Shown here: positions 5,054 to 8,749 of the stretch, in pieces
How positions within the stretch are numbered: position 1 is the stretch's first letter
Layout: the number at the start of each line of letters is the position of its first letter
Notes under the pieces: model-generated
The model's input: the letters and a program-made list of their open reading frames with translations, nothing else
The model's database searches: none
What the model was told of the DNA's origin: nothing
Made by a program: the position numbers and the translations under genes
DNA from: a bacterium
Lineage (GTDB): Bacteria; Calditrichota; Calditrichia; RBG-13-44-9
Direction of reading: 5' to 3'
Assembly: GCA_020350205.1 (NCBI GenBank)
Contig: CP070707.1
Span: 2,319,862-2,357,086, forward strand
Length of the DNA stretch: 37,225 nucleotides

Positions 5054-6424
5054 TTAATTCTTTTTACCATACAGTTGGTTATCGCTAAAGTAGTTTCGGG
5101 TTTCCCTGACGATGACCGGTGAAAGAGTTAATAAGGCAATCAGGTTAGGCAAGGCCATTAAGCCATTGAAGACATCTGCCAGAGCCCATACCAGATTTAG
5201 TTTTAACAGGGCACCTATCCCCACAAAAAGGACAAAGACCAGTCGATACGGTTGAACCGCTTTTTCACCCATGAGATATTCTACCGATTTCTCTCCATAA
5301 TAACTCCAACCCAGCATGGTGGAATAAGCAAATAAGATCAGACCAATTGCCACGATACTGTTACCCCAGTTTCCCGGTAGTCCTTTGGAAAACGCAATAG
5401 ATGTTAATTCTGCACCTGTTTTGCCGATATCCCAGGAGTTGGTCAGGATTAGAACCAGCCCTGTCATGGTGCACACGATAATTGTATCAATAAAAGTCTG
5501 GGTCATGGATACCAGGGCCTGTGTAACCGGGTGCTTGGTCTGGGCAGCTGCAGCGGCAATGGGTGCGCTTCCCAATCCCGATTCATTTGAAAATACCCCC
5601 CGGGCTACTCCCATGCGAATGGTCAACATGACCCCGGCACCTAAAAAACCCCCGGTAGCAGCAGTTGGGGTAAAGGCATATTTAATGATTAATCCGATGG
5701 CAGCAGGGATCAGATTTGCTTTCATTATAATAATTACCAGTGCTCCCCCCATATAAATAACAATCATGACAGGTACCAGAAAAGCTGTTACCCGGCCGAT
5801 GCTCTTTATTCCACCGAGAATCACCAGCCCGGTTGCTACCATCAGGATCAAACCTGTTACATAGACGGGGATATGAAATGTGGCCTGCACTGCATCAGCC
5901 ACGGAATTCGATTGCACCATATTTCCAATACCGAAAGCAGCTATAGCCGCAAAGATAGCAAATACCGTTCCCAGCCATTTCAGGCCCATCCCTCTGGAGA
6001 TATAATACATCGGTCCACCACTCATGGTATTATATTTGTCCCTGACCCGATACTTCACCGCTAGTACGGCTTCGGCATATTTAGTGGCCATGCCCACCAG
6101 TCCCGTGATCCACATCCAGAAAAGGGCACCCGGACCTCCGGCTGCAATCGCTGTGGCAACGCCGGCGATATTACCCGTTCCAACAGTTGCAGATAGCGCC
6201 GTCATGAGCGCTTGAAAATGGGTAATATCCCCCGGCTCATCTCCCTCTTCCTTTCTTTTAATCAGGGCCAGATACAGGGCATGCCATAAATACCTGAACT
6301 GCAATCCACGAAGCGCAAGAGTCAACCACAATCCGGTTCCCACCAATAACACCATCAGAGGGTAACCCCAAATGAGATTTCCGGCAAACACGAAAAAAGA
6401 TTCCAGATGTTTTAAAATATTCAT
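5054..6424 (-). CDS. AGCS family sodium:alanine/glycine symporter
   Basis: This 456-residue polytopic inner-membrane protein has about ten or eleven hydrophobic helices. It carries the alanine/glycine:cation symporter (AgcS/AlsT) signatures: [15 protein letters not shown] at residues 79-93, [10 protein letters not shown] just after, SGGPMYYI, and [17 protein letters not shown] in the middle. The family takes up small neutral amino acids with Na+. The start is preceded by AGGTAGGG. A 100-bp gap separates it from yqeB upstream, so it may have its own promoter, although I could not find a convincing one. The exact amino acid carried is not deducible. Confidence 0.93.
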
Positions 6425-6524: not shown

Positions 6525-7358
6525 TTAGCTGAAATAATAAAGAATTTCTTTCAAGACACTCCCGGCCACCGCAATCTGTTTAAAATCAAAGTATCGATAT
6601 CCCTGATGGGGCATTCCCTCATAGACCAGCGCCATGGGTTGTTTGGAGAATAAAATACGTCCGCTGTGAAGCAAACCCCAGATTTGACCCGCATAAGGTG
6701 ATCTGATTTCAATCCCTGTGATTAAACCGATGGGCTCCCCGACGGAAACCGGATCTCCGATATTCTTGAGGCTGGTAAAAATTCCTTCCAGGGGCGCATG
6801 AATTTGCTGAAAGGGCTGCTTAAAAAGATGAAAATCAAATTCAGCGTTTTGCAGGGGTTCATCCGGAATAATCTGCCCCACATGATAATTTGAACGAGTT
6901 TCAATTAACAATTGGCACTCAGTGTTAGATTCATAAAATGGATACAGACCCATAACCAAGCCGGCACTATGGTCAGAAAATGAGATGGTCTTTTCTTCCT
7001 GTGCAGCAACGATAACAGCCGGATTTAAAAGCCCCAAAAAATCTGGAAAATCTTTCTTAAAAAACACCGGTACGGTTCTATCATTCAGCAAATATCTGAT
7101 CGCCTTTTCCCAGGATTTAGAGAGAGATTCTTCCTGATATTCGGACAATCGGGATTCATCGATCAAGGACGCCTGAATCTGCTCAATTTTTTTCTTGCCG
7201 GTTGCAATAATATCAGAAAAGCACAGATTATGACGGAGCTCGGCTTCGAGGGGATCTATAACTAAAATAACATCTATCCCTGCTCGTGCCAGAAAGACTG
7301 TGATAGCGGAGCCGAACAAACCGCCGCCAATAACCAGCACTGACCGACTCTTATTCAT
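6525..7358 (-). CDS. yqeB: YqeB-like (EF2563 family) selenium-dependent molybdenum hydroxylase accessory protein
   Basis: The 277-residue protein starts with a Rossmann-type glycine loop (GGGLFGSA at residues 11-18). It continues with the family pattern of an Arg/His-rich stretch followed by a beta strand (RHNLCFSDII). A C-terminal lipoyl-like, gly-rich half follows: APLEGIFTSLKNIGDPVSVGE, cut here to its core GIFTSLKNIGDPVSVGEP, then IRSPYAGQIWGLL. This resembles the YqeB/EF2563 family, found next to selenium-dependent molybdenum hydroxylases. It is encoded just downstream of a YqeC-like protein, with an ATGA 4-bp overlap, the usual partner order. No molybdenum hydroxylase, selD or molybdopterin gene lies in the window. 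The family's biochemical role is not firmly known. The family call is from remembered patterns, not a search. Confidence 0.68.
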   Translation of the reverse strand: MNKSRSVLVIGGGLFGSAITVFLARAGIDVILVIDPLEAELRHNLCFSDIIATGKKKIEQIQASLIDESRLSEYQEESLSKSWEKAIRYLLNDRTVPVFFKKDFPDFLGLLNPAVIVAAQEEKTISFSDHSAGLVMGLYPFYESNTECQLLIETRSNYHVGQIIPDEPLQNAEFDFHLFKQPFQQIHAPLEGIFTSLKNIGDPVSVGEPIGLITGIEIRSPYAGQIWGLLHSGRILFSKQPMALVYEGMPHQGYRYFDFKQIAVAGSVLKEILYYFS

Positions 7359-8113
7359 TTATGTGGAATCCTTTTGAGACTGTTATCTTTCAGGTTGGAC
7401 TGGTAAATTTTCTGTATTTTTTTCGATAACAGATCCCGGGCCAGATTAATAGACCGGTTTTCCAGCAACAGGTTGTTAATATCGGTAAATACTAAAGAGG
7501 TCGGCCACTTCTGCTGGAATAATCGGTATGCCCCGTTCTCCGCACTCGTCAGGTAATTGAAGATGAAATCCTGGGAAAAGAGATTATCGCTTTTAAATTG
7601 AGGAAAATGCTCGACAATCTCCAATGCATTTCCCATTTTTGAATGATCTAAAGGCTGATCGATGAGGTCAAGCTGGAAACAGTAAATCAGCTGATCCAGC
7701 AGGTTCAATTTGCAGATTTTAGTGATATCTTTGTTGCTCAAAAGACTATATTTTTTTTCACTTCCCAACAATAACAATAGATAGTCCTGGGAATGTTCGG
7801 ACTTAAGTTTACGAATTCCGTTCAGGGTTAATCCGCGAACAAAGTGATCCTGAATCTCGGTTCCAACATAGACGATCGGATTAGTCTTTATTCCCTTTTT
7901 GATATCAGACAGCAGGGTTTTTTCATCCTTGTGATAGATAATTTTACCGGAAGGTGGAAGAATATCCTTTTCAATATTTGTTATTATAACTTTCTGACCC
8001 GCATGTGCGAGTTCACTCGCTACTTGATTTAACAAAAAATTTCTGCCCTTGCCACCAATAAAACCGATAACCCGGGTCTGCTTATTTTCAATAATCTGGT
8101 CTATAATCGCCAT
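7355..8113 (-). CDS. yqeC: Divergent YqeC-like accessory protein with degenerate nucleotide-binding motifs
   Basis: The protein has 252 residues. Its N-terminus (RVIGFIGGKGRNFLLNQVA, residues 14-32) aligns by pattern with the YqeC P-loop (GAGGKTT), but the Lys-Thr-Thr is replaced by Lys-Gly-Arg. The following strand, KVIITNIEKDILPP, matches the family's VTTTTKI..PP. Near residue 209, FTDINN stands where the family has an NKxD-like strand. Both nucleotide-contact motifs therefore look eroded, yet the frame is intact and overlaps yqeB by 4 bp. YqeC proteins are predicted GTPase-like factors for maturing selenium-dependent molybdenum hydroxylases. Here the protein may be a non-catalytic descendant. 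Taken alone it could be called hypothetical; the neighbouring YqeB is the main support. Confidence 0.55.
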   Translation of the reverse strand: MAIIDQIIENKQTRVIGFIGGKGRNFLLNQVASELAHAGQKVIITNIEKDILPPSGKIIYHKDEKTLLSDIKKGIKTNPIVYVGTEIQDHFVRGLTLNGIRKLKSEHSQDYLLLLLGSEKKYSLLSNKDITKICKLNLLDQLIYCFQLDLIDQPLDHSKMGNALEIVEHFPQFKSDNLFSQDFIFNYLTSAENGAYRLFQQKWPTSLVFTDINNLLLENRSINLARDLLSKKIQKIYQSNLKDNSLKRIPHK

Positions 8114-8127
8114 AACACTAGCTCAAC

Positions 8128-8544
8128 TCATTCAGGCACAATTTTGAAGCCCATTTTACTGTAGGCATGATTAGTGGTCATAATAAATCGGATATTACGC
8201 CGATTCATGAGTACGACATTGGCAAGGTCAAATAACGACAAAGAAATATCCGGAAATTTTTTAAAAAGTCTCAGTGCATCTTTTTGAGTTCGACGACCAA
8301 TCCACAAGTACCGAAGATGAGTCCCTAACCAGGCTTCCTCCAGTATTTCTGAGTATTTTATTGCCTGAACTGAATCTCTATTTATTTTAATTTTCGAAAT
8401 AACGTTACCTACAATAATGTTCGTCGTATAAAAACTATGACCGGCATCCAGATGATACTTAAATTGTTCTTTCATGCCGGCATGATTTGGGTTCTGTTTG
8501 TCAGATAAAATCAACCAGGCAATTTCATCCATAAATATTTTCAT
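8128..8544 (-). CDS. PIN-domain protein (VapC-like toxin), catalytic acids partly lost
   Basis: The 138-residue protein has PIN-domain layout: a first strand ending in D6 (KIFMDE), TTNIIVGNVIS at 40-50, a helix with D106 (SLSLFDLANVVLM), and a last strand IMTTNH at 121-126. Active VapC RNases use four acids. Here the second (usually Glu, in TTNxxxxE) is N47 and the fourth (usually Asp, in TTDxxF) is N125. D6 and D106 remain. Ribonuclease activity is therefore doubtful, or other residues compensate. It follows an AbrB-type antitoxin gene by 10 bp and has a perfect Shine-Dalgarno (AGGAGG). It is followed 14 bp later by yqeC. PIN fold is fairly sure; toxin activity is not. Confidence 0.75.
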   Translation of the reverse strand: MKIFMDEIAWLILSDKQNPNHAGMKEQFKYHLDAGHSFYTTNIIVGNVISKIKINRDSVQAIKYSEILEEAWLGTHLRYLWIGRRTQKDALRLFKKFPDISLSLFDLANVVLMNRRNIRFIMTTNHAYSKMGFKIVPE

Positions 8545-8550
8545 GCCCGA

Positions 8551-8557
8551 CCTCCTA
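8551..8557 (-). promoter_or_regulatory. Toxin ribosome-binding site overlapping antitoxin stop codon
   Basis: On the minus strand the sequence reads TAGGAGG. TAG is the antitoxin stop and AGGAGG is a consensus Shine-Dalgarno 6 bases before the PIN-gene ATG. Antitoxin-translating ribosomes finish on the toxin initiation site, so translational coupling is likely. The coupling is inferred; the overlap is directly visible. Confidence 0.75.
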
Positions 8558-8749
8558 ACCGTCTGAGAATTTTATGATTTTGTAAAGCGGATTTTCACTG
8601 ATCAGGATCTCAAGACGTTTAGATTTTACTTTTCTTAAGGTAATTTCTACCTTGTCACCGGGTTTGACATCCAGCTTATCTCGCACTTCCGGTGGGATAT
8701 CCACCGAATTATCGGATTTTAATTCTGTCATAAATGTGGTTATTTTCAT
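8555..8749 (-). CDS. AbrB/MazE-type (VapB-like) antitoxin
   Basis: This is a 64-residue looped-hinge helix protein. The swapped-hairpin AbrB pattern is clear: a Thr/Lys-rich first strand, then VDIPPEVRDKLDVKPGDKVE (residues 16-35), where the family normally has a V.IP..VR..L.I..GD.V. It should dimerise, bind DNA at its own promoter and, through its C-terminal tail (residues 48-64), hold the PIN protein encoded directly downstream. The gap to the epimerase gene before it is 51 bp, enough for a small promoter, but I saw no clear operator. Its own ribosome site is weaker than that of the toxin. Confidence 0.85.
   Translation of the reverse strand: MKITTFMTELKSDNSVDIPPEVRDKLDVKPGDKVEITLRKVKSKRLEILISENPLYKIIKFSDG

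Follow-up and report, generated by a model that had tools for sequence, protein, structure and literature searches.

An AbrB/PIN pair joined to divergent YqeC-like and YqeB-like genes in a four-gene unit of the Calditrichia

The yqeC/yqeB pair found in the window, the whole 37,225-nucleotide stretch of Calditrichia DNA that was analysed, is the downstream end of a four-gene operon on the minus strand. The first gene encodes an AbrB/MazE-like small protein of 64 aa (8555..8749). It is followed by genes for a VapC/PIN-like protein of 138 aa with a broken acidic tetrad (8128..8544), a YqeC-like protein of 252 aa with a predicted SIMIBI-type P-loop fold (7355..8113), and a YqeB-like protein of 277 aa (6525..7358). 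The first-pass annotation had placed two overlapping intact frames at 6525-8113 on this strand, and both were recovered there, sharing a 4-bp ATGA overlap. Its pair stands, but the extent of the unit does not, as two more upstream genes (8128-8749) belong to the operon. The four-gene unit with its AbrB/PIN pair is a new finding that had been missed. At the PIN-like gene, an AGGAGG resembling a ribosome-binding site shares bases with the stop codon of the gene before it. A gene for a sodium:alanine symporter (AgcS; 5054..6424, minus strand; PF01235, 494 bits) lies downstream of the YqeB-like gene, as it does in many loci of the class, and is probably outside the unit. The reading that we favour, with a probability of about 0.55, is that the four genes encode a domesticated, conserved four-protein complex which is uncoupled from molybdenum hydroxylases and in which the YqeC-like protein is a pseudo-NTPase.

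The unit is conserved across the class. Of the 31 PIN-bearing Calditrichia genomes, 19 have the complete order AbrB, PIN, YqeC, YqeB; nine lack YqeC, one lacks YqeB, and two lack both. Most genomes of the class are draft MAGs, so that single gene absences are weak evidence. The gene order is unchanged in all 31 PIN-bearing genomes, and an AbrB-like homologue was found before the PIN-like gene at each of the 31 class loci checked. This AbrB-like/PIN-like pair, which is single-copy and class-wide, precedes YqeC and/or YqeB in 29 of 29 genomes that hold PIN and either of the two. Contig ends truncate three more loci. Homologues of the YqeB-like and YqeC-like proteins are spread over the families of the class. 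At least three lines have dropped the YqeC-like gene but kept AbrB, PIN, and the YqeB-like gene, and one genome (G026) has a YqeB-like gene with no adjoining AbrB, PIN, or YqeC. Where computable, dN/dS for the PIN, YqeC, and YqeB genes was 0.04-0.19 in congeneric pairs from related genera (about 0.08 for YqeC, one pair of which was saturated and gave no value), and these values are rough because dS is near saturation. Judged by these ratios, these genes are under purifying selection.

Outside the class, no PIN-like neighbour was seen at 16 YqeB loci, although spurious open reading frames in the high-GC loci may hide neighbours. A separate YqeB scan of named genomes gave nine loci. Most of their titles name Calditrichota or Caldithrix MAGs; of the exceptions, one is given as Deltaproteobacteria, another as candidate division KSB1, and a third only as "bacterium". 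A plasmid search found no YqeC-like homologue.

The YqeB-like protein scored 77.5 bits (E 1.1e-21) against TIGR03309, with residues 7-274 aligned to positions 1-255 of the 256 in the profile. The curated cut-off of 220 bits is reached neither by this protein nor by any member of the class, the full-length ones scoring 57-107 bits. By homology, the assignment of 6525..7358 as a full-length but divergent YqeB is firm. Like the YqeBs of TIGR03309, which are accessory to selenium-dependent molybdenum hydroxylases (SDMH) and include Escherichia coli YqeB and EF2563, it has an N-terminal Rossmann segment, a C-terminal biotinyl/lipoyl-like (barrel-sandwich) segment, an AGGVLEA-type end, and a selD-positive genome. 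It differs from them in its low score, in its AbrB/PIN partners in place of xdh, moa, and selD genes, and in its separate position in the tree, where the Calditrichia YqeBs split from twelve canonical YqeBs on a branch with SH-aLRT 98. Its structure model is poor over residues 157-254.

The YqeC-like protein is weaker on its own score. It matched PF19842 with 21.1 bits (E 4e-4), below the cut-off of 27.6, and did not match TIGR03172. Its relatives carry the assignment. Eight of 20 YqeC-like homologues of the class match PF19842 (best 1.9e-17) and seven match TIGR03172 (best 2.6e-12). The gene's counterpart in G016, a genome from a different family of the class, also lies in this operon; its product scores 64.3 bits against PF19842, which is over the cut-off. 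A profile-profile comparison from which G016, the one member with intact motifs, had been left out still gave a 98.6% probability (E 6.4e-16, 224 columns) for the match of the class alignment to five canonical YqeCs. Because the homologues match the families and the class profile matches canonical YqeCs, the protein can be taken firmly, on homology, as a very divergent YqeC. Thus both names in the first-pass annotation hold by profile search, YqeB over its full length and YqeC below threshold, where it is rescued by its relatives and by the profile-profile match. The YqeC-like proteins resemble the members of PF19842 and TIGR03172 in fold, length, and place before yqeB. They differ in their motifs, and in that the gene is missing from nine genomes that keep PIN and the YqeB-like gene.

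In the five canonical YqeCs, the GxGGKT P-loop, ExDG, and NK motifs are invariant or nearly so. At these positions the window protein has GGKGRN, LLGS, and TDIN. Of 20 class members, 19 no longer have the Walker-type GGGGKT, EADG, and NK motifs; G016 alone is intact (GGGGKTT, IEADS, INK). BLASTP aligned G016 to the window protein with no gap (27% over 111 residues, E 6e-13). FIGGGGKTTLI in the former is set against FIGGKGRNFLL in the latter, and the columns of the Walker lysine and threonine are filled by R24 and N25, respectively, so the alignment does not restore the P-loop. The first-pass annotation had read GGKGRN against GGKTT and TDIN against an NKxD-like motif. The erosion is real and TDIN does occupy the position of the canonical INK, but the P-loop register has to be shifted, as R24 and not the lysine of GGK holds the critical column. 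Nor is the erosion peculiar to this genome, since it is class-wide. Among the 20 homologues, the Walker lysine column is always arginine in families f1-f3 (the window's order) and is mixed elsewhere. The eroded proteins descend from a real YqeC, because the same operon holds the intact YqeC of G016.

An AlphaFold2 model of the YqeC-like protein had a mean pLDDT of 85.5 and a pTM of 0.87. Its best Foldseek matches in the PDB were SRP54, FtsY, MinD, MipZ, and NifH (E about 2e-4 to 1e-3), all P-loop proteins of the SIMIBI class. The canonical YqeC profiles also weakly match FtsY and ArsA. Since the model is confident and its neighbours are of this class while the Walker residues are lost, the protein retains its predicted SIMIBI fold but not the catalytic signature. 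Loss of these residues from a sequence would be no proof that nucleotide binding is lost. The P-loop lysine and threonine, EADG, and NK have disappeared while the frame is intact and dN/dS is low, and the suggestion already made for this protein, that it is a descendant which has given up catalysis and taken on another job, is the best reading. The loss of one protein's nucleotide-binding site in nearly every species, from a cluster whose order the class has kept, points to a job that has changed but is still required.

The main rival is that these are divergent but ordinary YqeB and YqeC proteins which mature selenium-dependent molybdenum hydroxylases encoded elsewhere, with AbrB/PIN as a hitchhiking or regulatory neighbour. 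The genome itself speaks for it. It possesses selD (380.7 bits, with an in-frame TGA, C1:3972077-3973000), selA (545 bits), and four PF02738 places marking molybdenum-hydroxylase loci, all of which the first pass had proposed looking for. The nearest place is ~34 kb from the pair and ~5 kb beyond the right edge of the window, and the next is ~13.5 kb beyond. The locus ~34-40 kb away also encodes YgeY (398 bits against a cut-off of 321.5) and an SsnA-like protein (313 bits, cut-off 455). The pair had been called an orphan with no hydroxylase in the window. The window does lack one and the description is right locally, but it fails for the genome as a whole, and a hydroxylase system that is lost or orphaned at the genome level is ruled out by these genes. 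The nearness of the pair to a hydroxylase locus was considered as a functional link and dropped, as it is not conserved in relatives; the operon contains no hydroxylase gene, and in relatives the hydroxylases are distant or on other contigs. Since the genome has SDMH-like genes and only one TIGR03309-type protein, the YqeB-like protein may still serve its own hydroxylases.

Distance between these genes is also seen in Clostridioides difficile, where yqeB, yqeC, and selD are all separated (PMC11448449), which favours the same rival. In that organism, yqeB is needed for selenium-dependent use of xanthine and urate and yqeC is not; deletion of yqeC alone gave no phenotype, and the gene is largely dispensable (PMC11448449). 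The textbook arrangement is represented by a reference locus (L066) with yqeC-yqeB beside a selenium-type xanthine dehydrogenase, moaA, moaC, and xdhC, named by reading the sequences.

Several observations stand against ordinary maturation. No PF02738 hydroxylase was detected in the four genomes of genus g17 (three at 94-96% completeness), which retains AbrB, PIN, and the YqeB-like gene. Conversely, G008, G014, and G016 have hydroxylases and no detected YqeB-like gene. The YqeC motifs are lost. The YqeB-like scores lie far under the cut-off, where Haft and Self described a sharp drop in TIGR03309 score before homologues largely from selD-lacking species (PMC2276186), yet the Calditrichia proteins are in selD-positive genomes. 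The window genome also appears to be without moaA and moaC: its best MoaA match was 48.6 bits against 284, and MoaC gave no match. Taken together, we regard ordinary SDMH maturation as unlikely, though it is the strongest of the alternatives.

The conserved complex uncoupled from hydroxylases is favoured because g17 keeps AbrB, PIN, and the YqeB-like gene with no PF02738, while G008 and G016 have hydroxylases and no YqeB-like gene. The repeated loss of the YqeC-like gene fits the dispensability of yqeC in C. difficile (PMC11448449). In this complex, the four proteins would act together. The YqeC-like protein would keep its SIMIBI fold, would not hydrolyze nucleotide, and could act as a scaffold or regulator that is not essential. 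The PIN-like protein may be a VapC descendant, altered or dead as a nuclease, that partners the AbrB-like protein in a structural or RNA-binding role. The YqeB-like protein, with its Rossmann and barrel-sandwich segments, would be the active or ligand-binding component. The job of the unit would be independent of molybdenum hydroxylases, though it may still belong to selenium or redox metabolism. Genomic context of this kind implies a functional link, not a complex. That the unit is a Calditrichota-specific machine, in which a domesticated VapBC pair and YqeC/YqeB do a non-hydroxylase job such as RNA- or redox-linked control with YqeC as a pseudo-NTPase, is put forward only tentatively.

The AbrB/PIN pair itself raises another possibility, that of a VapBC-type toxin-antitoxin system particular to the class, with YqeC-like and YqeB-like partners that alter its regulation or activity. 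The AbrB/MazE-like protein matches PF04014 MazE_antitoxin (27.4 bits, cut-off 24.7). PF01850 is matched by 22 of 25 PIN-like homologues of the class and not by the window protein, and the PIN-like class profile matches VapC20 (PDB 5wzf, E 7.6e-7). The antitoxin-like gene comes before the PIN-like gene, as in vapBC, and many members in families f5 and f6 hold D-E-x-D with histidine at the third acid. However, none of the aligned members has the full acidic tetrad. In the window protein it reads D6, then N, D, N, so that two of the four acids are gone; the first and third are kept throughout the window's order, while the other families mostly keep acids 1, 2, and 4, with histidine at the third. 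Unlike a typical VapBC, the pair is also single-copy, class-wide rather than patchy, and coupled to YqeC/YqeB. PADLOC found no defence match for the AbrB, PIN, and YqeC proteins, and for the YqeB-like protein gave generic Rossmann matches to E1-E2 only. A toxin-antitoxin role is therefore improbable. Decaying remnants of a lost selenium-hydroxylase locus would account for the eroded motifs and for the loss of YqeC in several lineages, but with frames intact across the class, dN/dS well below 1, and an invariant gene order, this explanation is very hard to credit.

YqeB and YqeC are the least understood of the selenium-utilisation genes. A class that has the YqeB-like protein minus an intact YqeC, nearly always beside AbrB/PIN, supports the idea of jobs for these families outside molybdenum hydroxylases, and g17, with no hydroxylase detected, adds to this support. 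The Calditrichota proteins can be seen as natural separation-of-function variants of YqeB and YqeC. Among the papers searched, none tied Calditrichota to selenocysteine, or PIN domains to YqeB.

Other features of selenium and molybdenum metabolism were seen in these genomes. SelD is over the cut-off in 38 of 40 class genomes, and in most of the class it has an in-frame TGA, probably for selenocysteine. In many genomes there is a second SelD match with no TGA in a frame of roughly 740 aa, possibly a fusion. In g17, selD adjoins a selenouridine synthase gene; this synthase was not found in the window genome. PF02738 is present with both MoaA and MoaC missing in the window genome and about 14 other Calditrichia genomes, including G024, G025, G026, G027, and G028 (94-99% estimated completeness), and the genomes without one are largely those without the other. 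Adjoining the window on the right (C1:2357087-2377000) is a purine/pyrimidine catabolism cluster with two molybdenum-hydroxylase sets, YgeY, and SsnA-like, PreA-like, carbamoyltransferase, and hydantoinase/allantoinase-like genes.

Upstream of the unit, many genomes outside families f1-f3 have SerA-, PdxS-, PdxT-, CutA-, and IF-2B-family genes in a conserved order, as seen at L060 (1489-5196) and at other loci of families f4-f6. The PdxS/PdxT neighbours were first suspected to be hydroxylase subunits, which was dropped after their sequences were read. One contig labelled Deltaproteobacteria (L132, WYBG01000122.1) carries a Calditrichia-type unit, and its public label looks wrong. It and the contig of G015 are both 4,051 bases long.
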